Source of the DNA: Nocardia goodfellowii
GTDB lineage: Bacteria > Actinomycetota > Actinomycetes > Mycobacteriales > Mycobacteriaceae
Length of the DNA stretch: 64,000 bases
Reading direction: 5' to 3'
NCBI RefSeq assembly: GCF_017875645.1
Contig: NZ_JAGGMR010000001.1
Location: 5,084,001-5,148,000 of the forward strand
Part shown: positions 29,255-53,221 of the stretch, piece by piece
Layout of the letters: every line of letters starts with the position of its first letter
Numbering within the stretch: position 1 is the first letter of the stretch
Made by a program: the position numbers and the translations under genes
The notes under the pieces: model-generated
Databases searched by the model: none
Told to the model about the DNA's origin: nothing
What the model saw: the letters and a program-made list of their open reading frames with translations, nothing else

Positions 29255-29256
29255 TC

Positions 29257-30111: not shown

Positions 30112-30116
30112 ACGCG

Positions 30117-31124: not shown

Positions 31125-31158
31125 GCCCCGGGGCGCGGGTAAGGACGGAGGTGTGCGG

Positions 31159-35366: not shown

Positions 35367-36125
35367 ATGTCGCACAACGAGTCCGGTGATGTCGGACGGC
35401 TGGACCGCCGGGCGAAGCTCGGCTTCGCCCGGCGCGCGGCCGCGGCGCAGCTGGCGGGTCTGCCCAGCGTCGTCCGCGCCGGTCTGGGCCGCGGCGGACG
35501 GGGCGGCGGCGTGGAATTGGCCGACGCGCCACCCGACAGCCGGTTCACGCGGGAGGCGCGGGACCTGGCCGAGGCCTGCTACAGCCGCGAGCTCGAACAG
35601 CACGCGCTGCGGTGCTGGTACTTCGGGGATATCTTCGCGCAGCTGGACGGTCGCGTCTACGACGCCGAACTGCTCTACGTCGCCTGTCTGCTGCACGACG
35701 TGGGTTTGACCGAACGGCATCGCCCACGCCCGGACGGTGCGTCGTGCTTCGCCGTGCACGGTGCCGAGGTGGCCCGCGCGAGCCTCCTGGACTGGGGCGC
35801 GGATGCCGTGTTCGCGGAGACGGTTTCGCAGGCCATCGCCTTGCACATGGATGTCAGCGTGCCGGTGGAGCGCGGTATCGAGGCGCACCTGCTGCACGCG
35901 GGCGCGCATTTGGATGTGGCGGGCGTGCGCAGTGGTGAGGTACCGCGCGCGGCGCTCGTGGAGGTGATCCGGGCGCACCCGCGCGACGGATTCGTGCCGC
36001 TGTTCCTGGATGCCATGCGGCGCGAGGCCCGCGAGCGTCCGGACTCGCGGGCGGCGGTGCTGTGGAAACAGGGGATGCGCCTCCCGGTTTCGCTGAATCC
36101 ACTCGATCGCCTCTCGACAAGCTGA
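35367..36125 (+). CDS. HD-domain protein (putative phosphohydrolase)
   Basis: 252 residues. The HD motif is in YVACLLHDVGLTERHRP (about residues 108-124) with a supporting upstream His in LEQHALRCWYFGD and later His residues in CFAVHGAEVARASL and ALHMDVS, matching the metal ligands of HD-superfamily hydrolases. The N-terminus is basic and Ala/Gly rich. Last gene of the operon that begins with yrbE, 25 nt after the DUF2156 gene. Members of this subgroup are often annotated as nucleotide or cyanamide hydratase-like; the substrate is unknown. Confidence 0.85.
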   Translation: MSHNESGDVGRLDRRAKLGFARRAAAAQLAGLPSVVRAGLGRGGRGGGVELADAPPDSRFTREARDLAEACYSRELEQHALRCWYFGDIFAQLDGRVYDAELLYVACLLHDVGLTERHRPRPDGASCFAVHGAEVARASLLDWGADAVFAETVSQAIALHMDVSVPVERGIEAHLLHAGAHLDVAGVRSGEVPRAALVEVIRAHPRDGFVPLFLDAMRREARERPDSRAAVLWKQGMRLPVSLNPLDRLSTS

Positions 36126-36203: not shown

Positions 36204-38483
36204 ATGGTGCGCGTCCAACTGCTCACCAGGTTCGCGCGCTTGGCCGCGCGTGCGCCGCGCGCGGTTCTGCTCGCGGCGCTCGCGGTGCTGGTCGTCGCGG
36301 GCGGCTACGGCATTCCCGCGAGCCTCGAGTTGCCCGCCGCCGGATACGACGTGCCGGATTCGGAATCGGCCCGGGCGGACCAGGTGCTGGAAAGTGCTTT
36401 CGGTGCGGGCGGATACACCATGGTGTTCACCGTGCGCGCCGACGCCGGTGTCGACAGTCCGGCCGCGCGTGCGCGTGCGGAGACCGTAGCCGCAGCCCTG
36501 CGGGAGTCGCCGCACATCCGCAACGTGCTGTCCTACTGGACCGCGCCCGCCCCGTTGAACACCGCGCTGCGCGGTACCGACGGCGCGGCCGGGTTGGTGG
36601 TGGCGCGGATCGCCGGTGACGACGAGGAGGCGACCGTCCGGGCGCGGGCGCTGGCCGATCCGCTGGTCGGCGCCCGCGACGGGGTGGAGGTCGCCGCCGG
36701 TGGCCAGGCGATGACCTACTCCGAAGGCGGAGATCAGTCCAAACGCGACCTGTTCCTGATGGAGGCCATCGCTTTTCCGCTGACCTTCCTGGCACTGGTG
36801 TGGATCTTCGGCAGCGTCACCGCGGCCTCCTTGCCGATGGCGGTCTCGGCGGTGGCGGTCGCCGGGTCCGCGGCCGCGTTGAGCCTCATCGACAAGATGA
36901 CCGATGTCTCGGTCTTCGCGGTCAACCTGGCCACCGCACTGTGTTTGGCGCTGGCCATCGACTACACGCTGTTCATCGTCAACCGCTACCGCGAGGAACT
37001 CGCGAACGGCACACCGCCGGAAGCTGCCCTGGTGCGCACGATGAACACTGCGGGCCGCACCGTCACCTACTCCGCGTTGACCGTGGCACTGACGATTTCG
37101 GCCATGGTCATCTTCCCGCAGTACCTGGTGCGCTCACTGGCCTTCGCCGGGCTGGTCAGTGTGGTGTTCTCGCTACTCGGTTCGCTGCTCATCGCACCGG
37201 CGTTGCTGGTGGTGCTCGGACCGCGCATCGACGCACTGGACATCCGGCGGCCGATCGCCCGGCTGTTCGGACGGACCGTGCGCGACCAGCACGTCTCCAC
37301 GGAAAACCATTGGTACCGGACGGCGATGTTCTCCATGCGGCACGCGGTGCCGGTGGTGGGTGTGATCGGCGCCCTGCTGCTGGTGCTCGCCCTGCCCGCC
37401 CTCGGCATGAAGCTCGGCTACCCCGACGACCGGGTGCTGCCGGCTACGGCGTCGGCCCGCGCGGCCGGGGACACCTTGCGGTCGGACTTCACCAGAAACT
37501 TCGCCGGGACGGTCTACATCGTGCTGCCGGAGGGAGTCACGAACCCGCAGGCGTTGAGCGGTTACGCCGAAAACCTTTCCCGGGTACCCGATGTCGTGGC
37601 GGTGTCCGCTCCCGGCGGGTCGTATGCGGGCGGGAGCCTCGTATCACCGGCGACCTACGATTCCGCGATGCGCGCGGACGCGGCATACCTGACGGTGGCC
37701 ACCACGCTGGATCCCTACTCGGACGCGGGCAAGCGGCAGCTGGACGCTTTACGCGCGGTGGGCTCGCCCGCACCCACGCTGTTCGGCGGTGTGGCACAGC
37801 GCAATATCGACAATGTCGCGGGCATCACCGACCGCACGCTCTACGTGCTGGCCGGCATCGCCGTGATGACCTTCGTGCTGATCTTCCTCATGACAGGTTC
37901 GCTGGTACTCCCGATCAAGGCGCTGCTGATGAACGTGCTGTCGCTCGGTGCGGCGTTCGGCGCGCTGGTGTGGCTTTTCCAGGACGGCCACCTGGGCGCC
38001 CTGGGGACGACCGCCACCGGGCAATTCACCGCCTTCATCCCGCCGTTGCTGGCCTGCGTCGCGTACGCGCTGGCGATGGACTACGAAGTGTTCGTGCTCT
38101 CCCGCGTTCGCGAGGAATGGCTGAAGTCCGGCCGGACCGCGGCGGACAACGAACGCGCGGTCGCGCTGGGTCTGGCACGTACCGGGCGCATCGTCACCGC
38201 GGCGGCCGCCGTGATGATCGTGGTGTTCATCGCGATGAGCGCCGGGCAGGTCTCGTTCATGCGCGGGCTCGGTGTCGGCCTGGCCGTCGGGGTCGCGCTG
38301 GACGCTTTCCTGGTGCGCCCCTTGCTCGTTCCGGCGGCGATGCGCCTGATGGGACGATTCAACTGGTGGGCCCCCGCGCCGCTGGCACGCTGGCACGACC
38401 GGTGGGGGCTGACCGAACTTGAGACCGTGTCGGAATCGCGCCGCGCCCCCGCGCCGGCGCCGGTCGCGGCGGTGGCGGAATGA
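36204..38483 (+). CDS. MMPL/RND-family transporter
   Basis: 759 residues, two-fold RND architecture: helix near residue 15-35, extracytoplasmic domain, helices at about 185-340 with LCLALAIDYTLFIVNRYREEL, second extracytoplasmic domain, helices at about 550-720 with CVAYALAMDYEVFVLSRVREEW. The Asp-Tyr pairs in both halves are the proton-relay sites. It probably exports a lipid or a secondary metabolite. AGGGGG lies 7 nt before ATG 36204. It lies next to the SARP cluster (convergent, 8-bp gap) and could export that product, but its promoter carries a separate TetR-type operator. Confidence 0.93.
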   Translation: MVRVQLLTRFARLAARAPRAVLLAALAVLVVAGGYGIPASLELPAAGYDVPDSESARADQVLESAFGAGGYTMVFTVRADAGVDSPAARARAETVAAALRESPHIRNVLSYWTAPAPLNTALRGTDGAAGLVVARIAGDDEEATVRARALADPLVGARDGVEVAAGGQAMTYSEGGDQSKRDLFLMEAIAFPLTFLALVWIFGSVTAASLPMAVSAVAVAGSAAALSLIDKMTDVSVFAVNLATALCLALAIDYTLFIVNRYREELANGTPPEAALVRTMNTAGRTVTYSALTVALTISAMVIFPQYLVRSLAFAGLVSVVFSLLGSLLIAPALLVVLGPRIDALDIRRPIARLFGRTVRDQHVSTENHWYRTAMFSMRHAVPVVGVIGALLLVLALPALGMKLGYPDDRVLPATASARAAGDTLRSDFTRNFAGTVYIVLPEGVTNPQALSGYAENLSRVPDVVAVSAPGGSYAGGSLVSPATYDSAMRADAAYLTVATTLDPYSDAGKRQLDALRAVGSPAPTLFGGVAQRNIDNVAGITDRTLYVLAGIAVMTFVLIFLMTGSLVLPIKALLMNVLSLGAAFGALVWLFQDGHLGALGTTATGQFTAFIPPLLACVAYALAMDYEVFVLSRVREEWLKSGRTAADNERAVALGLARTGRIVTAAAAVMIVVFIAMSAGQVSFMRGLGVGLAVGVALDAFLVRPLLVPAAMRLMGRFNWWAPAPLARWHDRWGLTELETVSESRRAPAPAPVAAVAE

Positions 38484-38491
38484 CCGGCCCG

Positions 38492-39238
38492 TTACGCGCA
38501 GTGCTCGGTGCCGAGCGACCGGATCAGGCTGGGGTTGGGCAGGATTCCGAGCTCGTCCCGCAGCAGGCGTTCGAGGCGATGGTAGGAAGCTATCGCCTCG
38601 GCATCGCGCCCGGTACGCCGCAACGCCATTATCAGCATTTCCCACAGCCGCTCGTTCAACGGGTTCTCGGCAATGAATTTACGGGCGGTGAGGATTATTC
38701 GATCATATCGTTCGAGAGTCATCCAGGTAGTGAGGAGGAGTTCCTGCGCATGCGCTTTCGAAGCATACAAATCATCGGAAAAGCTCTGCAGTAGAGCGCT
38801 GTCCGTCACGTCTCGAAGCGCTTCGCCACGCCATAATCCGAAAGCATCCTCCACCATGCTCGCTACCACCGACGGTGTTTTCGGTGCCAGTCCGGCCGCG
38901 TGCTCGACGGTATCCATGAATCGCAAAGCATCGATACGCTCACGGGGAATGTCGAGCCGATAGCCGGCGACGCCGACAGTTTTCACCACATCGGCGGGTG
39001 CGCCATGGGATTTGAACCAGCGCCGCAGCCGGGCGATATGCGCGTGCAGCGCGTTGGTGGAGTTCTTGGTCGTCTCGAACAGGCCGAGCGCGTCCGTCAA
39101 CTCGTCGCGACCGACCGTATTGCCTTGCCGTGCAACCAATATGGCCGCTATACTGCGCAGCTTCCGGCCGTCCATAGGGTAGGCGGTGCCGTCGATCACC
39201 AGCTCCACCGGTCCGAGAACATCGATTCCGATCCGCAC
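38492..39238 (-). CDS. SARP-family (OmpR-like winged helix + BTAD) transcriptional activator
   Basis: 248 residues from GTG 39238. The N-terminal winged helix (LRSIAAILVARQGNTVGRDELTDALGLFETTKNSTNALHAHIARLRRWF) and bacterial transcriptional activation domain (EDAFGLWRGEALRDVTDSALLQSFSDDLYASKAHAQELLLTTWMTLERYDRIILTARKFI) give the small-SARP architecture of antibiotic pathway activators. It is divergent from the halogenase operon, whose promoter has tandem repeats with SARP spacing. Base composition is visibly more AT-rich than in neighbouring genes, especially at 38640-38960. It is very likely the pathway-specific activator. Confidence 0.95.
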   Translation of the reverse strand: MRIGIDVLGPVELVIDGTAYPMDGRKLRSIAAILVARQGNTVGRDELTDALGLFETTKNSTNALHAHIARLRRWFKSHGAPADVVKTVGVAGYRLDIPRERIDALRFMDTVEHAAGLAPKTPSVVASMVEDAFGLWRGEALRDVTDSALLQSFSDDLYASKAHAQELLLTTWMTLERYDRIILTARKFIAENPLNERLWEMLIMALRRTGRDAEAIASYHRLERLLRDELGILPNPSLIRSLGTEHCA

Positions 39239-39299
39239 AACACCCCCGAAGATCTCAGACCCGAACTAACCCCGACAGACGCCGCCGCCTCCATCGCAC

Positions 39300-39328
39300 A
39301 CGGTATTTTTCCGCACTCCTCTTGTCAA
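39300..39328 (-). promoter_or_regulatory. Promoter of the SARP gene
   Basis: Minus strand: -35 TTGACA (39328-39323), 17-bp spacer, -10 TACCGT (39305-39300), giving a leader of about 55 nt before GTG 39238. The consensus -35 and standard spacing suggest a housekeeping sigma factor. Confidence 0.6.
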
Positions 39329-39386
39329 TTGTGACGGCTCACCAACGAACCGTTCTGACAGTGTGCCGAGTGACCCCGCCCTCGAA

Positions 39387-39419
39387 TTTCAGTGCGATTT
39401 CAGTGTCGTCTCGTACTGT
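39387..39419 (+). promoter_or_regulatory. SARP-type activator site and promoter of the halogenase operon
   Basis: Direct repeats TTTCAGTG at 39387-39394 and 39398-39405 (11 bp apart, one helical turn), then 8 nt, then -10 TACTGT (39414-39419). Heptamer-like repeats spaced 11 bp, with the last one 8 bp from the -10, are the known arrangement for ActII-ORF4/DnrI-type SARPs. There is no good -35 box, as expected when the activator replaces it. Confidence 0.75.
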
Positions 39420-39427
39420 CCCTCGGG

Positions 39428-41098
39428 ATGGGATCGATCATGCTCCCCAATATTTTCCAGGGGTTGCTGAACAGAGGTTGGTGCGGTATGTCGAGTGGTG
39501 GATCAGGAGTGGATATTCCGTCGTTCGGAAGTTATGTCGAGGGCCGGGAATTAGCTGCGGACCAATGGGTTTACGTTCCGGTAACCCGGGCGCTGCTCAC
39601 CGATTCGTTCACGAGCCTCACCGTGAAACGAAAGCTGGACAGCGGCGAGCTCAGCGAATCCGCAGCGACCCCGGATATCTTCGCCGGACGCGTCGCGGTC
39701 GCGGACGCCGGCGTGGTCGCCGAGGCCTTGCGCGCGGCCTCGGACGCGGCGCGGGTGTGGCGCTCGGCGCCGTTGTCGACCCGGGTGGACGACCTGCTGG
39801 AGGCGGTGCGCGCCAACATCATCGGCAAGACCGAGACCATCGAGCGGATGATGACCTACGAGGGGCACCCGCTGGAGCTGGCCCGCTGGGAGATCGCCGG
39901 TTGGCTGGAAGCGCTGACTCCCTTGTCGCGCAGCTTCTTTCGGGCCGAGCTGCACAAGGAATTCGACTATCAGGGCCGGCGGCAGATCGTGCGGCGCCGG
40001 CCCGACGGCGTGGTGTGCGTGAATCCGCCCGCCAACGCGCCGATGTCGAGTGTGATCTTCGCGGCGACACTGAGCATTGTCGGCGGCAACGCGGTGGTGG
40101 TCCGGGCGCCCCGATCGGTGCCGCTGGGGGCGATGTGGGCGATCCGTGAAGTGCTCGCCCCGGCGCTGGCCGAGGTGGGCGCGCCACCGGGCACGGTCAA
40201 CGCCGTGTGCGGCGATCCGGAGCCGATCCTGCAGGCGTGGCTGGACAGTCCGCTGGTACACGACGTGATGTACTTCGGCAGCGTCGCGAACGGACTGGCC
40301 TTCGAGAAGCGTTGTGTCGCAGCGGGTAAGAAGCCGGTGCTCGAACTGGCGGGCAACGACACCGTGGTCGTCTGGTCGGACGCGAACCTCGAGCACGCCT
40401 CGGAGGCGCTGCTGGAGAGCTTCTTCGGCTCCGGTCAGCTGTGCATGATTCCGAACGTGGTGCTGGCGCACCCCGCGATCGCGGACGAACTGATCGCGCT
40501 GGTCGCGAAGAAGGCGCAGGCGCTGCGGCCCGGGCACCCCGACGAGGAAGGCGTGTTGCTCTCGCCGGTCCTGCGCCACGACGGTTTCCACCGCTGCCTG
40601 GCCGACGCGCTCGAGCGGGGTGCGCGATTGGTGATCGGGGGTGGCGGCATGCACCTCGATGGCACACCGAGCGACAGCGGCTATTTCTTGCAGCCCACCG
40701 TGGTGCGCGTCGACGGGCTCGCCGGGGCCCGGTCGCTGGAGGCGGTGGCGCACGAGACATTCTTCCCGCTGCTCCCGATCGTCGTGCCCGCCGAGGATGA
40801 CGACGCGACGTTGCTGGAAGCCTTCGTCGAATTCGTGAACTCGAACCTCTACGGGTTGCGGAATTCATTGTGGGCGCGCGACCAGGCGGTCATCGATCGC
40901 TACCTGGATCACGTGAGCAACGGCGGACTGCTGAAGGTCAACGATTCGCATATCGCGTTCTCGGCTCCGCTGCCCTCACACGGCGGCACCGGGCGCACCG
41001 GCGGCGTCTTCGGCGAAGCGAACTACCCGGTGTTGCGCACGACCCATGTCCAAGGCGTGTCGATCCTGCCCGCCGATACCGCGCCCAGATATCGATAG
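39428..41098 (+). CDS. Aldehyde dehydrogenase family protein
   Basis: 556 residues if ATG 39428, 8 nt after the -10 box, is a leaderless start; ATG 39440 and ATG 39488 are alternatives and the first 20 residues look dispensable. The NAD(P)-aldehyde dehydrogenase fold shows VVCVNPPANAPMSSVIFAATLSIVGGNAVVVRAP, the catalytic Glu in PVLELAGNDTVVVW and the nucleophile Cys in FGSGQLCMIPN. It oxidises an aldehyde, or reduces an acyl thioester if it works in reverse. The extended N-terminus (about 70 residues before the core) is longer than usual. First gene of the SARP-controlled operon. Confidence 0.88.
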   Translation: MGSIMLPNIFQGLLNRGWCGMSSGGSGVDIPSFGSYVEGRELAADQWVYVPVTRALLTDSFTSLTVKRKLDSGELSESAATPDIFAGRVAVADAGVVAEALRAASDAARVWRSAPLSTRVDDLLEAVRANIIGKTETIERMMTYEGHPLELARWEIAGWLEALTPLSRSFFRAELHKEFDYQGRRQIVRRRPDGVVCVNPPANAPMSSVIFAATLSIVGGNAVVVRAPRSVPLGAMWAIREVLAPALAEVGAPPGTVNAVCGDPEPILQAWLDSPLVHDVMYFGSVANGLAFEKRCVAAGKKPVLELAGNDTVVVWSDANLEHASEALLESFFGSGQLCMIPNVVLAHPAIADELIALVAKKAQALRPGHPDEEGVLLSPVLRHDGFHRCLADALERGARLVIGGGGMHLDGTPSDSGYFLQPTVVRVDGLAGARSLEAVAHETFFPLLPIVVPAEDDDATLLEAFVEFVNSNLYGLRNSLWARDQAVIDRYLDHVSNGGLLKVNDSHIAFSAPLPSHGGTGRTGGVFGEANYPVLRTTHVQGVSILPADTAPRYR

Positions 41099-41105
41099 GA
41101 GCCCG

Positions 41106-42245
41106 ATGATGCGCAGTTTGGACGACGCCCGCGCCGTCTGCGAAAAGCACCTGCCCGGACTGTATCCGGCGTTGGCGAGCGCCCCGCTGATGGAATGGGA
41201 ACGGCCCGGCAACCAGGGCCTGGACCTGTTCCGCAAGTTCGGCGGGCCCGGCCTGCTCATCCCCGCCGAGTACGCCGGTCACGGCGTGACTCCGCTGGAG
41301 GCGCTGCGGATCACCCAGGCGATCGGTTCGTGCGCGCCCTCGCTGGCGGTGGCGAGCACCATGCACCACTTCTCGGTCGCGACCATCTTCACCCTGGCCG
41401 CGAGCCTGCGCGCCAGTGGCTTGGAATGGGCACTGCTGGAAGGCATTTCGGATCAGAACCTGTTGGTCGCGTCAGGCTTCGCCGAGGGCAATCCGGGACA
41501 GGGCATCCTGACGCCGACGCTGCGGGGCGTACCGGCCGCCGGCGGATTGACGGTGCACGGCTCGAAGAAACCGTGCAGCATGGCGCGGTCGATGGACCTG
41601 TTCTCGGCGAGTGTCGCGGTCCCGGGGGCCGACGGCGCGGAGTCCGCGGCGGTCATCCTGATTCCGGCGTCGACGCCGGGGATGTCGGTGCATCAGTTCT
41701 GGGCGAGCCCGATATTGGGCGGAGCCGAGAGCGACGAGGTGCGCCTGACCGACGTCTTCGTGGACGAGCGGCTGCTCATCCCGATCGGCACCACCGCCGA
41801 CGGTGCGCTGGACGAACTGCAGACCGTCGGGTTCATCTGGTTCGAAATGCTGATCACGGCGTGCTACCTCGGAATGGCCACCGGGCTGGTGGAGCGAGTC
41901 TTCGCGGATTCCCGGCTGGGCGCGGAACGCCTTGCGGCGCTGGGCATCCGGCTGGAGACCGGCGTACTGCTGCTGGAGCGGATCGCGGCGTCGATCGCCG
42001 CGGGCCGGACCGGCAACGCCGAGCTGGCCACGGCGCTGGTCGCTCGCTACGCCGCCGTGGAGGCGATCAACGACGTCGTCACCGCGGCGGTGGCCGCTCT
42101 GGGCGGTCTGGCCTTCATCACCGATCAGGAGGTGGGCTACCTCGCCTCGGCGTCCCGGTGCGCGGGCTTCCATCCACCGTCCCGCTCGGCGATGAGCGAA
42201 GCCTTGGCCGCCAGCTTCACCGGCGCCGCGTTACGGATCGAGTGA
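41106..42245 (+). CDS. Acyl-CoA dehydrogenase family protein
   Basis: 379 residues. Acyl-CoA dehydrogenase fold: N-terminal helical domain with FGGPGLLIPAEYAGHGVTPLEALRITQAIGS, middle beta domain (ASGFAEGNPGQG, LTVHGSKKPCSMARSMDLFSASV), and C-terminal helical bundle (YAAVEAINDVVTAAVAALGG). It could form a C=C bond beta to a thioester, or act as an FAD-dependent oxygenase-like member; several natural-product clusters use such proteins on carrier-bound acids. AGGAG overlaps the preceding stop codon. ATG 41109 is an alternative start. Confidence 0.88.
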   Translation: MMRSLDDARAVCEKHLPGLYPALASAPLMEWERPGNQGLDLFRKFGGPGLLIPAEYAGHGVTPLEALRITQAIGSCAPSLAVASTMHHFSVATIFTLAASLRASGLEWALLEGISDQNLLVASGFAEGNPGQGILTPTLRGVPAAGGLTVHGSKKPCSMARSMDLFSASVAVPGADGAESAAVILIPASTPGMSVHQFWASPILGGAESDEVRLTDVFVDERLLIPIGTTADGALDELQTVGFIWFEMLITACYLGMATGLVERVFADSRLGAERLAALGIRLETGVLLLERIAASIAAGRTGNAELATALVARYAAVEAINDVVTAAVAALGGLAFITDQEVGYLASASRCAGFHPPSRSAMSEALAASFTGAALRIE

Positions 42246-42251
42246 GGAACG

Positions 42252-43514
42252 ATGACTACGACTGACACCGACACCACGGCCGAGCGGATCTCCCGCATCT
42301 ACCGCACGAATCTGAGCACCGGCCGGGCACGGCTGGGCGAGCTGGTCGGCGGGCAGGTCGAGGTGGAATCCAGCGGAGCCTGGATCCGCACGATGGACGG
42401 CCGGCGCTATCTCAACGCCGGGGGATACGGCGTATTCCTCATGGGCGCAAGACATCCCACGGTACTCACGGCCATCGACCGGCAGCTGCGCACGCATCCG
42501 GTCGGTTCGCGGATGTTCCTGGAACCGATGGCCGCGTGGGCCGCCGAGGCGCTGATCCGGGTGGCCCCCGCCGGGTTGACGCGGGTGCACTTCAGCGGAT
42601 CGGGCACCGAAGCGACCGAGACCGCGCTCAAACTCGCCCGGCTCAACGGTCGCCGGCAGGTGATCTCGATGCGCGGCGGCTATCACGGCAAGACCCTCGG
42701 GGCGCTGTCCGTGACCGGAAAGGCGTTGTTCCAGGACCCTTTCCGGCCCTTGCTGCCCGGCATCACGCATGTGCCGTTCGGCAGCGCCGAAGCGTTGGCC
42801 GCGGCGCTGGCACAGCACGCCGGGGAGGCCTGTGTCATCCTCGAGCCGATTCAAGGTGAGGCGGGCGTGGTCATCCCGCCGGCGGGCTACCTCGCTACGG
42901 TGGCCGCGCTGTGCGCGGAATACGACGCCCTGCTGATCATCGACGAGATCCAGACCGGCCTCGGCCGCACCGGCAGCTGGTGGGCGATCGAACAGGAGCA
43001 GGTGCGGCCCGACATCCTGTTGTCGGGCAAGGCGTTGGGCGGCGGGGTGCTACCGGTCTCGGCGGCGATCGCCTCCGAAGCGGTCTACACCGTGCTGGAC
43101 CGCGATCCTTTCCTGCACACCTCGACCTTCGCCGGCGCTCCCATCGCGATGGCCGCGGTGTGCGGTGCGCTCGAGGCGATCACCGATGACCGGTTGGTCG
43201 AGCGCGCCGCGACGCTCGGGACACTGCTCTTCACCCAGATGGAAGCCTTGGTCGCGCAATACTTTTCGCCGCGGGCGTGCCGGCTCCGGGGGCGTGGACT
43301 GCTGCTGGGCCTGGAGTTCGCCGATCCGGCCATGGCGACCGATCTGCTGGTGGAACTGGTGGCCGAGCACGTCATCGCCAACCACTCGCTCAATGCCGAA
43401 CGGGTGGTCCGGCTGACACCACCCGCGATTCTCGACGACAACGAAGTCGATTTCCTGTTGGACCGCTTCGAGAATGCGGTCCGCACGACCGCATCGCGCT
43501 ATCCCGAATCCTGA
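42252..43514 (+). CDS. Class III PLP aminotransferase
   Basis: 420 residues. Fold-type I class III transaminase: HFSGSGTEATETALKLAR (phosphate-binding), YHGKTLGALSVTG, CVILEPIQGEAGVVIPPAGY, ALLIIDEIQTGLGRTGSWWAIE with the PLP Asp, and the Schiff-base Lys in DILLSGKALGGGVLPVSAAI. It resembles ornithine/acetylornithine and omega-aminotransferases that convert aldehydes to terminal amines or the reverse. With the aldehyde dehydrogenase and acyl-CoA dehydrogenase it could install or remove an amine on the cluster product. Starts 6 nt after the preceding gene. Confidence 0.92.
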   Translation: MTTTDTDTTAERISRIYRTNLSTGRARLGELVGGQVEVESSGAWIRTMDGRRYLNAGGYGVFLMGARHPTVLTAIDRQLRTHPVGSRMFLEPMAAWAAEALIRVAPAGLTRVHFSGSGTEATETALKLARLNGRRQVISMRGGYHGKTLGALSVTGKALFQDPFRPLLPGITHVPFGSAEALAAALAQHAGEACVILEPIQGEAGVVIPPAGYLATVAALCAEYDALLIIDEIQTGLGRTGSWWAIEQEQVRPDILLSGKALGGGVLPVSAAIASEAVYTVLDRDPFLHTSTFAGAPIAMAAVCGALEAITDDRLVERAATLGTLLFTQMEALVAQYFSPRACRLRGRGLLLGLEFADPAMATDLLVELVAEHVIANHSLNAERVVRLTPPAILDDNEVDFLLDRFENAVRTTASRYPES

Positions 43515-43524
43515 GGTGAACACC

Positions 43525-44043
43525 GTGCGAAGTGCCACATTGACCGTGCGGTCGACGACCGTCGACCCCGACCAGGCCTATGACATCGTCCGCCGTTTCG
43601 AATCGTATCCGGGTCTCGTCGAAGAGGTCCGATCCGTCGTGGTGCGCGAGGCGCCGGACGGCCGTTCCTCGATGAGCGACTGGGAGGTGTATTTCCGCAA
43701 CGGCCCGCTGCGGTGGACCGAGGTCGACTATTTCCAGCCGGAACGCCGCAACATCGTCTTCGAGCAGGAGTCCGGCGACTTCCACGTCTTCCGCGGATCC
43801 TGGCAGGTGCGTCCGGCCGGCGCCGGCAGCGCCGTAACCTTCGAGGCCGCGTTCGATTTCGGGATCCCGAGCATGACCGGAGTGCTGGAACCCATCGCGG
43901 AGAAGGTGCTCAAGGAGGGCATCGCCACCATCCTGATCCGACTGCTGGGCGATGGCGAGGTGGTCGGCGATCCCGCGGTGGCCGCCGCCGTCGCCAAGAA
44001 ACTCGCGGTCGCCGCGACCGCGCCGATCGGAGCGGGTGACTGA
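43525..44043 (+). CDS. SRPBCC/polyketide cyclase-like protein
   Basis: 172 residues from GTG 43525 (GAGG 9 nt upstream). START/Bet v1-like helix-grip fold: TVDPDQAYDIVRRFESYPGLVEEVRSVVVRE, then YFRNGPLRWTEVDYFQPERRNIVFEQESGDFHVFRGSWQV, and a long C-terminal helix. Related proteins act as aromatases/cyclases or as lipid-binding (COQ10-type) proteins. In this operon it could cyclise or dehydrate an intermediate, but no polyketide synthase is visible in the window. Tight spacing with its neighbours shows operon membership. Confidence 0.85.
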   Translation: MRSATLTVRSTTVDPDQAYDIVRRFESYPGLVEEVRSVVVREAPDGRSSMSDWEVYFRNGPLRWTEVDYFQPERRNIVFEQESGDFHVFRGSWQVRPAGAGSAVTFEAAFDFGIPSMTGVLEPIAEKVLKEGIATILIRLLGDGEVVGDPAVAAAVAKKLAVAATAPIGAGD

Positions 44044-44044
44044 G

Positions 44045-44497
44045 ATGGATCACGCGAACCGATTCACCACCCCCACCACCTATCGGTTGATGCGCCTGGA
44101 ATACGGCGTCGCGACCGTGGCGTGCGGGCTGCTGTTCTTATGGCACATCGACGAGGTGCGGTGGTGGCCCGCCATCGCACTGTTCGCCTACATCGACGTA
44201 ATCGGTTACATCCCAGGTTTGCTCGTCTACCTGCGGAACAAACCCGGTCCGGTGCCGCGGGTGTACTACATCCTCTACAACACCATGCACAGCTTCCTCA
44301 CGCAGTCGGCGGTGGTGGGTGCCTGGGTGCTGCTGTTCGGGTTCGAATGGGCGTTGCTGGTCGTACCGATCCATCTCTGCGGTGACCGCGCGCTGTTCGG
44401 GAACTTCATCAAGCCCTTCAGCGTGCCGTTCGAACCGAAAGCGGTGCCGGAGTTCGAGGAATTCGAACGCCGGCTGGCCGCCCGGGTCGCGGGGTGA
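44045..44497 (+). CDS. Multi-pass membrane protein of the halogenase operon, unknown
   Basis: 150 residues with three to four membrane segments (about 17-33, 39-60, 84-104, 106-120) and charged ends. The conserved-looking polar residues RVYYILYNTMHSF and IHLCGDRALFGNFIKPF could line a cavity. An upstream in-frame GTG (44036) overlaps the previous stop and is an alternative start. It has no transporter family signature that I recognise. Being inside the operon suggests a role in product synthesis at the membrane or in export. Confidence 0.75.
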   Translation: MDHANRFTTPTTYRLMRLEYGVATVACGLLFLWHIDEVRWWPAIALFAYIDVIGYIPGLLVYLRNKPGPVPRVYYILYNTMHSFLTQSAVVGAWVLLFGFEWALLVVPIHLCGDRALFGNFIKPFSVPFEPKAVPEFEEFERRLAARVAG

Positions 44498-44503
44498 ACG
44501 GCG

Positions 44504-44989
44504 ATGAGCGAGGTCGATATCGGACCCGATTCCCAACAGTGCCTGCGGCTGTACCGCAAGCTCGCCGCCAGCGTCGCCATCATCTCGGCGCAAGGCCCCG
44601 CCGGTCCGGTCGGGATGACGGCCTCGTCGCTGACCTCGTTGTCGCTGCGGCCGCCGCTGCTGCTGGCGTGTCTGGCCGTCGGGTCGCAGACCCTGACCGC
44701 GATCGAGCGCAGCGGCGCGTTCGGAGTGGCGCTGCTCAGCGAGCGGCAGCAAGCGCTGGCAGAGGATTTCGCGTCACCGGCGGGCGCCAGGTTCGCCGGG
44801 GCGGGGTACCGCAGTGTGCTCGGGGTGCCGGTGCTCCCGGATCCGCTGGCCTGGTCGGTCTGCCTGCTGACCGACACCCGGACCTATGGCGATCACGTCG
44901 TGATCGTCGGAGAAATCATCGCGTTGGAGACGGATTCAGGGAGGCCGCTGCTGTGGCACAGTCAAGCGTTCGCGTTGCTTCGAACATGA
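44504..44989 (+). CDS. Flavin reductase-like protein (likely FADH2 supply for the halogenase)
   Basis: 161 residues, the standard size of the FMN-binding split-barrel flavin reductases of two-component monooxygenases. Typical segments: LYRKLAASVAIISAQGPAGPVGMTASSLTSLSLRPPLLLACLA and the C-terminal RTYGDHVVIVGEIIALE. It reduces FAD or FMN with NAD(P)H. Its stop overlaps the start of the FAD oxidase gene and it is two genes upstream of the halogenase, which requires reduced FAD, so the partner is encoded in the same transcript. Confidence 0.92.
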   Translation: MSEVDIGPDSQQCLRLYRKLAASVAIISAQGPAGPVGMTASSLTSLSLRPPLLLACLAVGSQTLTAIERSGAFGVALLSERQQALAEDFASPAGARFAGAGYRSVLGVPVLPDPLAWSVCLLTDTRTYGDHVVIVGEIIALETDSGRPLLWHSQAFALLRT

Positions 44990-46323
44990 GGAACGTACCC
45001 GTCTGGTGGCCCGAAACGGGCCTGGCGCCGGGCGGTGACCGGCTCGCGAGCACCGGGCGGGTAGATCTGGCGATCGTCGGCGGCGGCCTGGCGGGATTGG
45101 CCACCGCGCACTACGTCGCCGCGGCCCGGCCGGAGTGGAAAATCGCTGTGCTGGAAGCGGAGACGATCGGTGCGGGTGCTACCGGTCGCAGCACCGGCAT
45201 CGTCTCGCCGGGACTGAGCATCCCGCTGCCCCAGTTGCGGCGCAGGATCGGTGACGCCCGCACGCTGGCGGCCTTCGACGCCTCCCAGCGCGGTGTCACC
45301 CTGCTGCGTGAGCTGATCAAAACCGAGCGCATCGACTGCGACGCCCGCGACGAGCCGCACACCCTGGTGGCCCTCACCCCGGCGAAGCGCCGGCGGATGA
45401 GCACCCACCTCGCGGCACTGCGCGAGCTCGGCCGGCCGGTGCGCTGGCTCACCGCCGACGAGGTGGTCGAATCGGCCGGACCCGGATACACGGCCGGATT
45501 CGCCTACGAGAACGCGATGGTCATCGATCCCTATCGACTGCTGACCGGTCTGGCGGCCACACTGCGCGAACGCGGGGTGCGGATCTTGGAGAACAGCCGG
45601 GTGCTGTCGCTGGACACCGTCGACGGGGCACCCAAGGTGTACACCGAGACCGGAGCGTTGACCGCCCGCCGCGTACTGCTCACCGTCGACGGTTACGCGG
45701 GACCGCTGAACCCGGTGCCGGCGTCGGTGGTGCCGTTGCGCACGCACCTGCTGGCCACCGCGCCGTTGACGAAAGCGCAACTGGCGCAACTGGGTTGGTC
45801 GGGTCGCGGCGGCATCATCGACCAGCGCAACTTCTTCAACTATTACCGCATGACCGAGGACAACCGCGTCGTGTTCGGCGGCGGTCCCGCGCTGGTGCCT
45901 ACCGGTGATCCCGCTCGGGACGAGCAGCGATCGGCACGCGTCCAGCGCCGGGTCGACGCCGAACTGCTGCGACGGTTTCCGGTACTCGCCGAAGTCGAGG
46001 TGGTGGCCCGCTGGTCGGGCTTGACCGCCAGCAGCCTGGATCGGCTGCCCGTGGTCGGCCCGGTGCCCGGCCGGGACGGCTTCTACTACGCGGGCGCCTG
46101 GTGCGGGCATGGTTTCGCCATGTCGGTGGACTCGGCCTGGCGTTTCGCCGACGCGCTCAGCGGCGGACCCGCGCCCCGGCTGCCCTGGAGCCGCAGCACC
46201 GCTCAGCGCCTGCCGACGAAATACGCCCGGACACATGGCGTTCGGGCGTACCTGCGCTACCTCGACTATGCCGACCGGTTGGACCTGCGCCGTACGCGCG
46301 CCCGCGAAGGAGGACTCCGATGA
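44986..46323 (+). CDS. FAD-dependent oxidoreductase, DadA/D-amino acid oxidase-like
   Basis: 445 residues. N-terminal FAD motif LAIVGGGLAGLATAHYVA (about residues 28-45), ATGRSTGIVSPG, and C-terminal WSGLTASSLDRLPVVGPVPGRDGFYYAGAWCGHGFAMSVDSA, as in the glycine/D-amino acid oxidase (DAO) family. Such enzymes oxidise amines or amino acids to imines. ATG overlaps the flavin reductase stop (ATGA) and its own stop overlaps the halogenase start. It may dehydrogenate an amine made by the aminotransferase. Substrate unknown. Confidence 0.9.
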   Translation: MRNVPVWWPETGLAPGGDRLASTGRVDLAIVGGGLAGLATAHYVAAARPEWKIAVLEAETIGAGATGRSTGIVSPGLSIPLPQLRRRIGDARTLAAFDASQRGVTLLRELIKTERIDCDARDEPHTLVALTPAKRRRMSTHLAALRELGRPVRWLTADEVVESAGPGYTAGFAYENAMVIDPYRLLTGLAATLRERGVRILENSRVLSLDTVDGAPKVYTETGALTARRVLLTVDGYAGPLNPVPASVVPLRTHLLATAPLTKAQLAQLGWSGRGGIIDQRNFFNYYRMTEDNRVVFGGGPALVPTGDPARDEQRSARVQRRVDAELLRRFPVLAEVEVVARWSGLTASSLDRLPVVGPVPGRDGFYYAGAWCGHGFAMSVDSAWRFADALSGGPAPRLPWSRSTAQRLPTKYARTHGVRAYLRYLDYADRLDLRRTRAREGGLR

Positions 46324-48053
46324 AGGACGACAAGACATTCGATGTGGCCATCGTCGGCGGGGGGATCGGCGGCGCCGCGCTGGCCGCGATCCTGGCCCGG
46401 CACGGCGTACGGGTGGTGATCATCGAGGCGGGCGGGCATCCGCGCTTCGCCATCGGCGAGTCCACCGTGCCGGAAACCATTATGGGACTGCGGAATCTGG
46501 CCCGCCGCTACGATGTCCCGGAGCTGGAGAATCTCTCCTCGCACACGAAGTTGCGGCGGGTGGTGAGCGCCGGTTCGGGCGTGAAACGAAACTTCAGCTT
46601 CGCCTATCACCGCGACGGCGAGGCGTTCCGCCCCACCGAATGCACCCAGTACCCGACCTGGGGTCCGCCGATCGGCCCCGACTCGCACTTCTTCCGCCAG
46701 GATGTCGACGCCTACGTCTATCAGGTGGCGCTGTCCTACGGAGCGGTCGGGCACACCTATCGCCCGGTCACCGGCGTCGATTTCGATGCCGACGGCGCGA
46801 CGCTGCGTACGGCCGACGGCGCGGAGTTCCGGGCCGGGTTCGTCGTCGACGCGGGTGGAATGCGCAGTCTGCTCGGGGAATCGCTGGATCTGCGGATGGA
46901 ACCGCCGTACCGGACGCGCTCGCGCACGATCTTCACCCACTTCACCGGTGTCGAACCCTTCGACCGGTTCGCCGGTCCGCGCAGTGCGCACGGCATGCCG
47001 AGCCCGTTCGCGCAGGGCACCCTGCACCATCTGTTCGAGGGCGGCTGGGCCTGGGTGATCCCCTTCGACAACCATCCCGATACCACCAGCAGTCTGTGCT
47101 CGGTGGGCATCAGCCTCGACCTGGATCGGTATCCGAGCCCGGCCGAGGACTCGCCCGAGGCCGAATTCTGGGCGCACGTACGGCGTTTCCCCGATTTCGA
47201 GCGGCAACTCGCCGGGGCGCGCGCGGTGCGGCCGTACATGTCGACCAAGCGCAACCAGTTCGCCTCCCGCCAGGTCGTCGGTGACCGATGGTGCTTGCTG
47301 CCGCACGCCTCGGACTTCATCGACCCGCTGTTCTCCAGCGGTCTGGCGGTCACCGTGATGGCGCTCAACGCGTTGGGGCACCGGCTCATCGACGCGGTGC
47401 GTGAAGGCGATTTCGCCAGGGAGCGTTTCGAATACGTCGAAACCTGGGTCAAGCGGGCCTTCGCCTACTACGACGATCTGGTGAGCTACTCCTATGTCGC
47501 GTTCGACGATTTCGAGCTGTGGAACGCCTGGTTCCGGGTGTGGACGATCGGGACCCTCTACGGGGTGAACGGCCAGATGCAGACCGGATTCGCCTACGAC
47601 CGGACCCGGAACCGGCTGGTATTCGACACGCTGGAACAGGCGCCGTACCGCGGCGTGCAGGGCATCGACAACCCCGACTGCGCCGCGCTGTTCACCAAGG
47701 CCTGCCGGGCCATGCAGGCCTACCGGGACAAGGAGATCGACGTCGGCGAGGCCTGCGGGCGCATCTACACCGCGCTGGCCGACAGCGAGCTCGCGCCGGG
47801 ATTCTGGCGCATCCTGGAACCGGCCGACCGATGCCCCTCCGGACCGTTCACGCTGCTGTCGATGACTCGAATCCTGTTGTGGGGCAAGTATTCCAGCCCG
47901 GCGCATGTCCGCGGCCGATACTTCACCAACGGCTTCGGCGTGGTGGTGGGGGAGGCCGGTCGTTTCTACGGCCACGAACTGCGCAACAGCCTGCGCACGG
48001 CCACCCACGGGGTGCGGGACATGTTCGTCGCCGGTAACCGCGACTGGCGCTGA
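46320..48053 (+). CDS. Flavin-dependent halogenase
   Basis: 577 residues. FAD motif VAIVGGGIGGAALAAIL (residues 10-26), GESTVPE (46-52) and the halogenase signature W-x-W-x-I-P as W243-A-W245-V-I-P248, which shields the flavin and suppresses plain monooxygenation. A Lys in GSGVKRNFSFAYH (about residue 90) is a candidate for the lysine that binds HOCl. FADH2 probably comes from the reductase encoded at 44504. Length and sequence feel closer to carrier-bound or phenolic-type halogenases than to tryptophan halogenases, but I cannot place it. It is coupled by ATGA to the upstream oxidase gene. The key tailoring enzyme of the cluster. Confidence 0.9.
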   Translation: MKDDKTFDVAIVGGGIGGAALAAILARHGVRVVIIEAGGHPRFAIGESTVPETIMGLRNLARRYDVPELENLSSHTKLRRVVSAGSGVKRNFSFAYHRDGEAFRPTECTQYPTWGPPIGPDSHFFRQDVDAYVYQVALSYGAVGHTYRPVTGVDFDADGATLRTADGAEFRAGFVVDAGGMRSLLGESLDLRMEPPYRTRSRTIFTHFTGVEPFDRFAGPRSAHGMPSPFAQGTLHHLFEGGWAWVIPFDNHPDTTSSLCSVGISLDLDRYPSPAEDSPEAEFWAHVRRFPDFERQLAGARAVRPYMSTKRNQFASRQVVGDRWCLLPHASDFIDPLFSSGLAVTVMALNALGHRLIDAVREGDFARERFEYVETWVKRAFAYYDDLVSYSYVAFDDFELWNAWFRVWTIGTLYGVNGQMQTGFAYDRTRNRLVFDTLEQAPYRGVQGIDNPDCAALFTKACRAMQAYRDKEIDVGEACGRIYTALADSELAPGFWRILEPADRCPSGPFTLLSMTRILLWGKYSSPAHVRGRYFTNGFGVVVGEAGRFYGHELRNSLRTATHGVRDMFVAGNRDWR

Positions 48054-48055
48054 GG

Positions 48056-49396
48056 GTGTCGTCCCTGGCGGCCGCGCCGGTATCTCCGATCCCGGCGCAC
48101 AGCGTGCTGATCCTGCTCGTTCAGTTGTGTGTGCTGCTGGTCGCGGCCCGAGGGCTGGGCAGCCTCGCACTGCGCTGCGGTCTGCCTCGAATCGTCGGCG
48201 AGCTCTCGGCCGGCATCCTGGTCGGCCCCTCGGTGCTGGGCCACCTCGCACCGGAGATCGCGACGTGGCTGTTCCCGGTACGGGCCGAACAGCAGCACCT
48301 GCTCGACGCCGTCGGCCAGATCGGCGTGCTGCTGTTGGTGGGGCTGGCGGGTACGCATTTGGACGTCGGGTACATCCGGACGCGAGCCGGCACCGCGGCC
48401 AAGGTGAGTGGCGCCGGACTGGTCCTGCCGCTCGCGCTCGGCGTGGGCGTCGGCCTGCTCGCGCCCGTTCCGCTCCGGCCGGCGGGCGCGGACCCGATCG
48501 TGTTCGCCCTGTTCCTCGGGGTCGCCCTGTGCGTTTCGGCGATACCGGTGATCGCCAAGACGCTGCGCGAGCTGAATCTGTTGCACCGCAACATCGGTCA
48601 GCTCATCCTGACGGCGGGCACGATCGACGACGCGGTCGGCTGGTTGCTGCTGTCGGTGGTGGCGGCGCTCGCGGTGCACGGGCTGACCGCGGCGACCGTG
48701 TTCACCTCGATCGGCTGGCTGGTGGCGGTGCTGGCGGTGGCGCTGCTCATCGGTCGGCCGCTCGTGCGGTTCGCGATCCGTCGCGCCCGCGCGGGTGACG
48801 AGTCGACGCGGGTGACGGCCGTGGTCGTGGTCGTGCTGCTGGCCGGGGCGGCGGCCACGCAGTCGGTCGGCTTCGAGGCGATCCTCGGGGCGTTCGTGTG
48901 TGGTGTGCTGATCCGTTCGGCCGGGGCGCCCGCGGCACTGCTGCAGCCGCTCGACACCACCGTGCTCGCCGTGCTGGCCCCGATCTATTTCGCCACCGCC
49001 GGTCTCCGGATGGATCTGTCCGCGTTGGCCGAGCCGCGCCTGCTCGGCATCTCGCTACTGATCCTGGCCACCGCGGTCGCGGGCAAGTTCGCCGGCGCGT
49101 TCCTCGGCGGATATCTCAGCGGTCTGACGCGGCGCGAGTGCGTCGCGCTGGGCGCGGGCATGAACGCCCGCGGTGTCATCGAGGTGATCATCGCGATGGT
49201 GGGGTTGCGGATGGGCGTGCTCGGGGCCGAGGCCTACACCGCGCTCGTGCTGGTCGCGGTGATCACCTCGGTGATGGCGCCGCCGATTCTGCGCTGGTCT
49301 CTCGCGGCCGCGCCGGTCACGGCGGAGGAGGAGAACCGCCGAACCGGTACGACGATCGACCCGGAGTCTGTCGGTGAGCGCGCGTCCAACGACTAG
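48056..49396 (+). CDS. CPA2-type cation:proton antiporter
   Basis: 446 residues from GTG, 2 nt after the halogenase stop. About 12-13 membrane helices; GLPRIVGELSAGILVGPSVLG and LTAGTIDDAVGWLLLSVVAAL contain the motif with the paired Asp residues of the ion-binding unwound helix. The C-terminus is short, without the TrkA domain of KefB/C. Antiporters of this kind accompany several actinobacterial natural-product clusters, where they may give resistance or ion balance. It appears to be in the same transcript as the halogenase. Confidence 0.9.
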   Translation: MSSLAAAPVSPIPAHSVLILLVQLCVLLVAARGLGSLALRCGLPRIVGELSAGILVGPSVLGHLAPEIATWLFPVRAEQQHLLDAVGQIGVLLLVGLAGTHLDVGYIRTRAGTAAKVSGAGLVLPLALGVGVGLLAPVPLRPAGADPIVFALFLGVALCVSAIPVIAKTLRELNLLHRNIGQLILTAGTIDDAVGWLLLSVVAALAVHGLTAATVFTSIGWLVAVLAVALLIGRPLVRFAIRRARAGDESTRVTAVVVVVLLAGAAATQSVGFEAILGAFVCGVLIRSAGAPAALLQPLDTTVLAVLAPIYFATAGLRMDLSALAEPRLLGISLLILATAVAGKFAGAFLGGYLSGLTRRECVALGAGMNARGVIEVIIAMVGLRMGVLGAEAYTALVLVAVITSVMAPPILRWSLAAAPVTAEEENRRTGTTIDPESVGERASND

Positions 49397-49406
49397 ACTG
49401 GTGATT

Positions 49407-50024
49407 GTGGACGAGGTGCAGCCCAGCCGGCGCGAGATGTATGCCGCGCTGACGAAGAACGCGATTGTCGACGCCGCGAAGAAGTTGTTCGTCGAACGCG
49501 GCTACGACGATACCTCGGTGGACGATATCGCGCGCGCCTCCAATGTCAGCAAAGGCGCTGTGTACCACCACTTCCGCGATAAGCAGCAGGTGTTCGCCGA
49601 GGTGTATCGCGCCGCCACCGCGGTGGTCACCGGGGTGGTCGCCGAGGCGGTGCTGGCCGCGCCCGCCGACTCGTGGGAACGGGTCGAGGTCGCGGTGCGC
49701 ACCGCCATCCGCACCTACGCCGGAGATCCGGAGGCGCGCGCGTTGCTGCGTCAGGTGATCCGGGTGCTGGGGGAGGACAAGACCAAGGAACTGGAGCTGG
49801 AGTTGGCGTTGCCGCTCATCCGGGGCCTGCTCGACGAGATGGCGCGCATCGGCGAATTGCGATCCTTCGATACCGATATCGCGGCACAACTGGCGTTCCG
49901 GGTGCTGTGTGAGGCGTCGCTGATCGTCGCCGCGGCCGACGACCCCGCCGCGGTTTCCCTGGAAGCCGAGACGGTCATGCTGCAGATGCTCGAGGGATTG
50001 CGCACCCGGACCCAGGCCGCCTGA
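49407..50024 (+). CDS. TetR-family regulator at the end of the halogenase operon
   Basis: About 205 residues. N-terminal helix-turn-helix: NAIVDAAKKLFVERGYDDTSVDDIARASNVSKGAVYHHFRDKQQVFAEVYR; the C-terminal ligand domain is standard. In-frame GTG codons lie at 49374, 49401 and 49407. I chose 49407 because TAGACT (49394-49399) would be a -10 box 7 nt upstream, as for other regulators in the window. An imperfect inverted repeat (AGTCTGTCG 49365-49373, CGACTAGACT 49390-49399) brackets that box and may be its own operator. It may control export or the cluster. Confidence 0.88.
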   Translation: MDEVQPSRREMYAALTKNAIVDAAKKLFVERGYDDTSVDDIARASNVSKGAVYHHFRDKQQVFAEVYRAATAVVTGVVAEAVLAAPADSWERVEVAVRTAIRTYAGDPEARALLRQVIRVLGEDKTKELELELALPLIRGLLDEMARIGELRSFDTDIAAQLAFRVLCEASLIVAAADDPAAVSLEAETVMLQMLEGLRTRTQAA

Positions 50025-51870: not shown

Positions 51871-52152
51871 ATGTCGCAGCAGCGGAATGAACGCGGATCT
51901 CGAAGCGAGGAAGCGGTGCTGCTGGCCGCGGGGCTAGCGGACGTGGCGCTGAGCCGGATCGGCCCGGTGCTGGAGCGCGCGGTGGGATTGCTACGGCGGT
52001 CGGACCTTCCGGGCCTGGCCCGGGAAGCGGAGACCGACTTGAAGGCGCGCGGCCGGCTGGCGCTGGACCGCAGCACCGTGCTGCCGCCCGCCCACCTGGA
52101 GATCCTCGCGCAGCATGTCGTGGCCCGGGAGACTGGTCCCGATGCCGGCTGA
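51871..52152 (+). CDS. Small protein preceding the polyprenyl synthase, unknown
   Basis: 93 residues from ATG 51871 (AGGAG about 10 nt upstream); an in-frame ATG at 51754 would add a basic, low-complexity extension and is less likely. Predicted largely helical (SEEAVLLAAGLADVALSRIGPVLERAVGLLRRSDLPGLAREAE). It overlaps the polyprenyl synthase gene by 11 nt, so the two are translationally linked; it may be an accessory or regulatory subunit. No family recognised. Confidence 0.6.
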   Translation: MSQQRNERGSRSEEAVLLAAGLADVALSRIGPVLERAVGLLRRSDLPGLAREAETDLKARGRLALDRSTVLPPAHLEILAQHVVARETGPDAG

Positions 52153-53191: not shown

Positions 53192-53221
53192 TCCACCGCG
53201 TCACCGACACAAGGAGTTTCG

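Follow-up and report, generated by a model that had tools for sequence, protein, structure and literature searches.

The described systems closest to the gene cluster considered here are the azodyrecin (ady) and valanimycin (vlm) clusters. The cluster lies in a window of 64,000 nucleotides (the whole stretch of DNA that was analysed) from the 7.98-Mb genome of Nocardia goodfellowii, and it combines a flavin-dependent halogenase gene with probable genes for the formation of a nitrogen-nitrogen (N-N) bond. The azodyrecin proposal runs from a dehydrogenase that gives an aldehyde, through a pyridoxal phosphate (PLP) transaminase, a VlmH/VlmR-type N-hydroxylase and a VlmA-type transfer from aminoacyl-tRNA, to Ady6 and Ady8, the counterparts of VlmO and VlmB (PMC9379638). 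Here Ady2 is the dehydrogenase and Ady4 the transaminase, with further roles for Ady3/Ady10, Ady7 (PF09924) and Ady6; the same paper uses the Pfam model PF09924 for VlmA and calls VlmB/O/R highly conserved (PMC9379638). VlmO is a membrane-bound hydrazine-forming enzyme in which D51, H82, H110 and D114 are essential, and the diiron oxygenase VlmB takes its product further, towards the azoxide (PMC11705231). In other N-N pathways the DAO homologues Spb39, Tri27 and Apy10 act on hydrazine intermediates; Spb39 and Apy10 cleave hydrazines oxidatively, Apy10 at the C-alpha-N bond (PMC11705231).

The window cluster keeps the VlmO part of this scheme and lacks VlmB. Comparison of VlmO loci shows a conserved gene set, conserved VlmO residues, mutual exclusion of VlmB and a DAO-family oxidase, and a halogenase that occurs only together with the DAO gene. 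We consider it likely, on the evidence of gene content and homology, that the cluster encodes a form of the valanimycin/azodyrecin azoxy route which does without VlmB and leads to a long-chain aliphatic N-N compound, and in which the DAO enzyme would oxidise the hydrazine and the halogenase would tailor the product.

The probable nitrogen-nitrogen core of the cluster

The cluster very probably encodes an N-N pathway of the VlmH/VlmR/VlmA/VlmO kind. An earlier note on this DNA had listed a small membrane protein; it is present, at 44045..44497, and comparison identifies it as VlmO. At E 0.001 neither Pfam nor NCBIfam has a family that fits it. The four residues reported as essential in VlmO are kept at identical numbers and are invariant in 55/55 aligned relatives. 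The features, with predicted or proposed roles, are as follows.

34331..35341, + strand: VlmA-like aminoacyl-tRNA-dependent transferase (PF09924 LPG_synthase_C, 5.6e-55)
35367..36125, + strand: HD-domain protein (PF01966)
36204..38483, + strand: MMPL family transporter, probable export (PF03176; beside the cluster in Nocardia relatives)
38492..39238, - strand: SARP-family regulator with BTAD and winged helix, divergent (PF03704, 1.6e-28)
39386..39405, + strand: candidate SARP box, two 9-nt direct repeats ATTTCAGTG, start-to-start 11 bp, weak
39488..41098, + strand: aldehyde dehydrogenase (ALDH)-family enzyme, proposed to turn an acyl group into a fatty aldehyde, the Ady2 role (PF00171, 7.3e-59)
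41106..42245, + strand: VlmH-like flavin-dependent amine N-hydroxylase of acyl-CoA dehydrogenase fold (weak Acyl-CoA_dh Pfam matches)
42252..43514, + strand: class III PLP aminotransferase, proposed aldehyde to alkylamine, the Ady4 role (PF00202, 2e-87)
43516..44043, + strand: SRPBCC protein, core member (PF03364, 7.9e-22, translated from 43525)
44045..44497, + strand: predicted VlmO-like membrane hydrazine synthase (D51, H82, H110, D114)
44504..44989, + strand: flavin reductase, VlmR role, which may also feed the halogenase (PF01613, 9.8e-34)
44986..46323, + strand: DAO-family oxidase dependent on flavin adenine dinucleotide, proposed VlmB replacement (PF01266, 8.8e-62)
46320..48053, + strand: flavin-dependent halogenase of CtcP/PltM type (PDB tetracycline 7-halogenase, 3e-125)
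48056..49396, + strand: CPA2-type cation/proton antiporter (PF00999, 2.9e-48; TIGR00932 below its cut-off)
49374..50024, + strand: TetR regulator, start at 49374 or 49401 (PF00440, 6.7e-20, translated from 49401)

All ten operon genes of the earlier note and the divergent SARP gene were found where it had placed them, most with Pfam support; BTAD, Aldedh, Aminotran_3, Polyketide_cyc, Flavin_Reduct, DAO, Trp_halogenase, Na_H_Exchanger and TetR_N scored above cut-off. The halogenase-bearing operon does stand beside the SARP gene with neither a polyketide synthase (PKS) nor a nonribosomal peptide synthetase. Its + strand genes extend from about 39488 to 50024, and the close coupling that had been claimed is borne out: consecutive genes from ALDH to TetR are spaced by -23 to +7 nt, so that a single operon is plausible. 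The ALDH gene was correctly recognised, but its start moves from 39392 to 39488 or 39509.

The interval 38492..50024 had been given too short. The cluster starts at 34331, about 4 kb upstream, and takes in the VlmA-like, HD and MMPL genes. In three other Nocardia genomes (G044, G182 and G183) the whole set stands in the same order, PF09924 protein, HD protein, MMPL, SARP and then the operon, with 52-82% identity per gene; since all three keep the whole order, the gene set is more than chance. In N. pseudovaccinii L019, N. pseudobrasiliensis L025, N. bovistercoris L035 and Rhodococcus ruber L020 the PF09924 gene is itself part of the operon and immediately precedes the DAO gene. Because of this position and of the order in the three Nocardia genomes we count the VlmA-like gene as a cluster member. 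Against PDB its product matched MprF and alanyl-phosphatidylglycerol synthase domains (about 4e-18).

The gene called an acyl-CoA dehydrogenase in the earlier note has weak support under that name (its C-terminal domain scores 25.8 bits, the cut-off being 22.4, and the two remaining domains fall short of theirs), and by comparison it would be a VlmH-type N-hydroxylase. Its PDB matches, to prolyl-PCP dehydrogenase and the flavin monooxygenase DszC, are weak. A protein of this fold and a flavin reductase are both present in the window and linked to VlmO; the VlmH role is read from this co-occurrence and from weak similarity.

VlmO-like genes occurred in 15/150 Nocardia and 39/199 Streptomyces genomes. 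We fetched 56 VlmO places (16/16 in Nocardia, 40/41 in Streptomyces; a partial place in G314 was left out), as a rule with about 17 kb each side of VlmO, one of them being the window itself; genes were called by a simple custom script, not a standard gene finder. Fifty loci with a called VlmO plus VlmA or VlmH were counted. The six others were G012, G022 and G150b (no VlmA/VlmH), G017 and G188 (VlmO missed by the gene caller, neither VlmB nor DAO seen) and G292 (a 5-kb contig having VlmB). Rhodococcus L020 and S. tendae L037, which had been reached by way of their halogenases, stand outside the count, and L020 is in the trees. One set of genome loci comprised the best 80 of 552. Among the 50 loci, which were chosen to hold VlmA or VlmH, labels were given to VlmA in 47, VlmH in 49, an aminotransferase in 46 and SRPBCC in 45. 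The ALDH gene is replaced by a male-sterility-type reductase (NAD_binding_4) in Rhodococcus and in the azodyrecin-like and halogenase loci of Streptomyces.

The near-universal SRPBCC gene is outside the five genes named as common to the valanimycin, KA57-A and azodyrecin clusters (PMC9379638). VlmO-like genes with the four metal residues were also seen in a different, shared gene context in G012, G022 and G150 (L129-L134), with no VlmA or VlmH called nearby.

The earlier note knew of no described pathway with this exact gene order and suspected a missing carrier protein. The azodyrecin/valanimycin logic is in fact recognisable in the core genes. A carrier protein is indeed absent from the cluster, but an acyl or peptide carrier is not the missing part: VlmA-type enzymes draw the amino acid from aminoacyl-tRNA (PMC9379638, PMC12945691), so no such carrier is needed and the "missing carrier" is, by analogy, most likely tRNA. 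The halogenases CtcP and PltM, for their part, act on free substrates. The amine intermediate of the predicted halogenated product also looks likely, and the claim was incomplete as to pathway type, which is the VlmH/VlmR/VlmA/VlmO route. A prodigiosin or pyrrole-type logic, to which weak PigA, RedW and PigE matches pointed, was rejected: there is no carrier protein and the VlmO set explains the core genes.

VlmB and the DAO-family oxidase across VlmO loci

If VlmO is present, what follows it? No VlmB ferritin-like diiron oxygenase was found at the window locus or in the window's genome, and the VlmB query matched 0/150 Nocardia genomes, that genome included. As a positive control the same query matched 24/199 Streptomyces genomes, all of them VlmO-positive. 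The VlmB family is well delimited: its members, of about 326 residues and beside VlmO, match PDB 6d9f "Putative VlmB homolog" at 1.9e-91, bear the NCBI name "VlmB-like protein" and score at least 509 bits against 24 for the next protein. For DAO the corresponding gap is at least 475 against 75 bits.

The 50 loci divided into 23 with VlmB only, 20 with a DAO homologue only, none with both and seven with neither (Fisher p 2.4e-8 for the exclusion, common descent ignored). Five of the seven end at contig ends (G176, G303, G191, S. rochei G099 and G325), and the contig of G325 stops within the first 67 residues of a DAO. One Streptomyces genome, G276, has two VlmO clusters (L197/L198 and L244/L245), one of VlmB type and one of DAO plus halogenase type, which makes it a natural case for comparison within one genome. 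Another 325 genomes spread over the class gave six new loci, three with VlmB, two with DAO, one with neither (G472, on an 18-kb contig) and none with both. Here G508 was dropped as the same genome, by coordinates, as Streptomyces G323; three of the six loci fall in the genus of G508. G518 and G668 belong to that genus, so that these loci and the Streptomyces set are not independent of each other.

In the concatenated VlmH+VlmO+VlmA tree (47 rows, R. ruber L020 included, 41 with a VlmB/DAO state) four VlmB/DAO switches were counted, three of them forced by starred branches; a single switch was sufficient in 0% of 200 bootstrap trees. Wherever VlmB is present (24 loci), it is 0.8-1.8 kb away from VlmO. 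The window DAO has 51-73% identity to the DAO of near relatives. Its predicted structure (mean predicted local distance difference test score, pLDDT, 92.2) comes closest to those of glycine, sarcosine and iminodiacetate oxidases, L-proline dehydrogenase and L-amino acid deaminases, a group whose reaction is the oxidation of amino-acid C-N bonds. Together this pattern makes it probable, to our judgement by a good margin, that the DAO enzyme stands in for VlmB.

The halogenase and the proposed pathway

The identification of a flavin-dependent halogenase in the earlier note is well supported by sequence. The protein has a profile match of 7.6e-178, and its PDB matches are CtcP, the tetracycline 7-halogenase (3e-125, residues 3-447), and PltM (4.4e-98, residues 6-493). 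Residues G13/G15/G18, K89, W243/W245/I247/P248, F333, S339 and G341 are invariant in 23 aligned homologues and P336 is kept in at least 90% of them; we take these to be the GxGxxG motif, the catalytic lysine, WxWxIP and FxxPxxSxG. The nearest named halogenase is that of N. transvalensis (82%). Among the 50 loci the halogenase occurs solely with DAO (16/20 DAO loci, 0/23 VlmB loci). Genomes with close homologues are all VlmO-positive, 4/4 among 99 relatives of the window (at least 57% identity) and 10/10 among 199 Streptomyces (63-65% identity), where the lowest of them has 829 bits and the next match 464. It is therefore somewhat more probable than the opposite, judging from this distribution, that the halogenase acts on the product of the N-N pathway.

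In the proposed pathway, the ALDH enzyme would turn an acyl group into an aldehyde and the aminotransferase would convert this to an alkylamine, which the VlmH-like enzyme and the flavin reductase would N-hydroxylate. The VlmA-like enzyme would take an amino acid from aminoacyl-tRNA and join it to the hydroxylamine as an ester, and VlmO would rearrange the ester to an N-alkyl hydrazino acid. This expected VlmO product resembles an N-substituted amino acid. The DAO enzyme, replacing the diiron VlmB, would then oxidise the hydrazine. The likeliest site is C-alpha-N, which would yield a hydrazone that is perhaps cleaved to a terminal alkylhydrazine; alternatively, N-N oxidation would give an azo compound. 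Oxidation to the hydrazone appears the most economical outcome, because DAO folds oxidise C-N bonds, the VlmO product resembles an N-substituted amino acid, and Spb39 and Apy10 cleave hydrazines. The halogenase might halogenate the hydrazone or azo unit or its tautomer, at the carbon of the hydrazone/ene-hydrazine or at nitrogen, or help to oxidise the N-N product, and the MMPL protein and the antiporter would export or protect.

A stronger form is conceivable by analogy and, we think, rather unlikely: the flavin oxidase and the halogenase together would have taken over from the diiron oxygenase, with electrophilic halogen acting on the N-N unit itself by N-halogenation with elimination or by alpha-halogenation of a hydrazone or ene-hydrazine. 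The expected products would be hydrazone, azo or diazo lipids, halogenated either overtly or cryptically. A chemical precedent is the in vitro oxidation of hydrazones to diazo compounds by vanadium haloperoxidases, for which N-halogenation is proposed (PMC12833808). Four DAO loci (G216, G332, G269 and G357) speak against it, having no halogenase in the stretch fetched.

Several points weigh against the proposed DAO and halogenase route as a whole. Every reaction and product in it is inferred and not observed, and the assignment of VlmH and VlmA rests on fold and on their membership of the cluster rather than on a comparison with the valanimycin enzymes. G113 and G158 are real exceptions: about 17 kb on each side contains no VlmB and no DAO, so other pathway endings exist. 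DAO lies farther from VlmO (1.4-20 kb) than VlmB does, the 20-kb case (G036) being seen only because that region was fetched further out for its halogenase. The independent switches number only three to four, and a paired sign test gave p 0.25, a test that cannot reach significance with only three independent pairs. The DAO proteins of Streptomyces, G115, G150a and G036 share 31-37% identity with that of the window, so the DAO proteins may not all run the same reaction. Another azoxy-making enzyme may act instead. Finally, CtcP and PltM act on phenols, yet no aromatic substrate is visible.

One alternative is a halogenated azoxy compound, for which the DAO enzyme, alone or with the halogenase as a flavin N-oxygenase, would do the whole VlmB reaction and the chain would be halogenated. 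The same core and the presence of DAO where VlmB is missing agree with it. So does gene sharing in Streptomyces, where a PF04072 methyltransferase, together with a UbiB-type kinase and a sigma factor recognised by eye, is common to eight halogenase loci and to four VlmB loci of azodyrecin type; beside this block stand VlmB and a PF00487 desaturase in the VlmB loci and DAO, halogenase and a WS/DGAT-like gene in the halogenase loci. However, DAO homologues that act on hydrazines cleave them rather than make azoxides (PMC11705231), and the DAO model lies nearest to C-N-oxidising folds. DAO-family enzymes oxidise C-N bonds and are not known to be oxygenases. This alternative is unlikely.

It is still less probable that the halogenase is a passenger, serving another pathway or losing its function beside an unhalogenated N-N product. 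The four DAO loci without it in the stretch fetched do show that it is dispensable for the DAO variant. Its restriction to VlmO-positive genomes in the samples searched, its conserved active-site residues and the 4-nt overlap of its gene with the DAO gene argue the other way. Least of all do we expect a halogenated amine or amino-acid product with no N-N bond and VlmO- and VlmA-like genes serving elsewhere, since the presence of an aminotransferase, an amine-oxidase fold and a halogenase, and of VlmO-like genes lacking VlmA/VlmH nearby (G012, G022, G150b), has against it the four kept VlmO residues and the label counts of the 50 loci.

The N-N unit may be completed in a third way in G113, G158, G017 and G472 (L127/L128, L136/L137, L141/L142, L261/L262), VlmA/VlmH loci with neither VlmB nor DAO. 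VlmO was called in three of them and, in G017, recovered by search. Each of the four has, by eye, a BVMO-like flavoprotein gene and a DAG-kinase-like gene, and G158, G017 and G472 have PKS-like genes. A DAG-kinase-like neighbour in other Nocardia loci was considered as VlmB and ruled out by its sequence. In the Nocardia halogenase locus G009 there is one member of the desaturase cluster. Among mycobacteria, close halogenases (67-69%) occur in Mycobacterium sp. E802 and a metagenome-assembled genome of M. stephanolepidis (P0012, P0023), and DAO homologues (57-59%) in Mycobacteroides abscessus and M. stephanolepidis (P0250, P0254); these homologues hint at related mycobacterial clusters.

Accessory genes and comparison with known systems

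Two accessory genes go with the halogenase in their distribution over the loci. The HD protein gave tblastn matches in 12/16 halogenase loci, 0/4 DAO-only loci and 0/23 VlmB loci, and the antiporter label falls on 11/16 halogenase loci and 0/27 other classified loci. The nearest solved relative of the HD protein, a distant one, is PDB 6dk9, "DNA damage-inducible protein" (2.1e-7), which we take to be yeast DDI2, a cyanamide hydratase. A role as diiron oxygenase was not supported, in view of this relative and because, by eye, one candidate ligand differs in the Streptomyces copy L037. The cluster is probably under SARP control. The candidate SARP box was set aside: 7/5000 mononucleotide shuffles were equally good, and the repeat is missing from six relatives.

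Upstream, a block of an MlaE permease pair, MoxR ATPase, DUF4129 and DUF58 genes (28337-34356) borders the cluster. Its MoxR-to-DUF58 part also borders the VlmO clusters of G044, G182, G115, G150, G113 and G009, which differ in content and orientation, and the MlaE pair is likewise beside five of these six. The block beside differing clusters therefore suggests that Nocardia VlmO clusters share a chromosomal site. Downstream, at 52142-54388, a polyprenyl synthetase gene precedes an MpaB/Lcp-type oxygenase gene; as cluster members (a GGPPS with MpaB) they were rejected, there being no match beside the cluster in relatives.

How hydrazine intermediates are routed to azoxy, azo, hydrazone or diazo groups is largely open, and the DAO/VlmB exchange offers a testable case. 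In Nocardia, Rhodococcus and Streptomyces a diiron enzyme has repeatedly been swapped for a flavin oxidase, which is often accompanied by a halogenase. The predicted product family, with a close halogenase in 10/199 sampled Streptomyces, all VlmO-positive, could be found by hydrazine-guided and halogen-guided screening. Genes of PF04820 accompanying some VlmA groups were mentioned in 2022, with no product (PMC9379638). The open-access literature searched described no product for a VlmO cluster with a halogenase and no replacement of VlmB by DAO.

Compared with azodyrecin ady (Streptomyces sp. RM72 / A1C6), the window cluster has in common the acyl-derived aldehyde, the transaminase, a putative VlmH/VlmR-type pair, VlmA (PF09924) and VlmO. 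Between 34331 and 50024 there is no member of the families of Ady8 (VlmB), the Ady9 desaturase or the Ady1 methyltransferase, and the window adds DAO, halogenase, HD protein and antiporter. With valanimycin it appears to have the VlmH/R/A/O logic in common (PMC9379638, PMC11705231), whereas the short amine (isobutylamine), the dedicated seryl-tRNA synthetase VlmL and VlmB belong to valanimycin and not to the window cluster. CtcP and PltM are the closest solved structures to the window halogenase and have the lysine and WxWxIP regions in common with it; the window halogenase represents a distinct subfamily that accompanies VlmO clusters in the samples searched. Spb39, Tri27 and Apy10 resemble the window DAO as DAO-family flavoenzymes acting after N-N formation, a likeness at superfamily level, and they follow an ATP-dependent hydrazine synthetase of Spb40 or Apy9 type, not VlmO (PMC11705231). 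The first half of the predicted pathway would be of a known kind, and the VlmB-to-DAO exchange with the halogenase its new part; a flavin oxidase and a halogenase in the place of the iron enzyme point to an undescribed product family.

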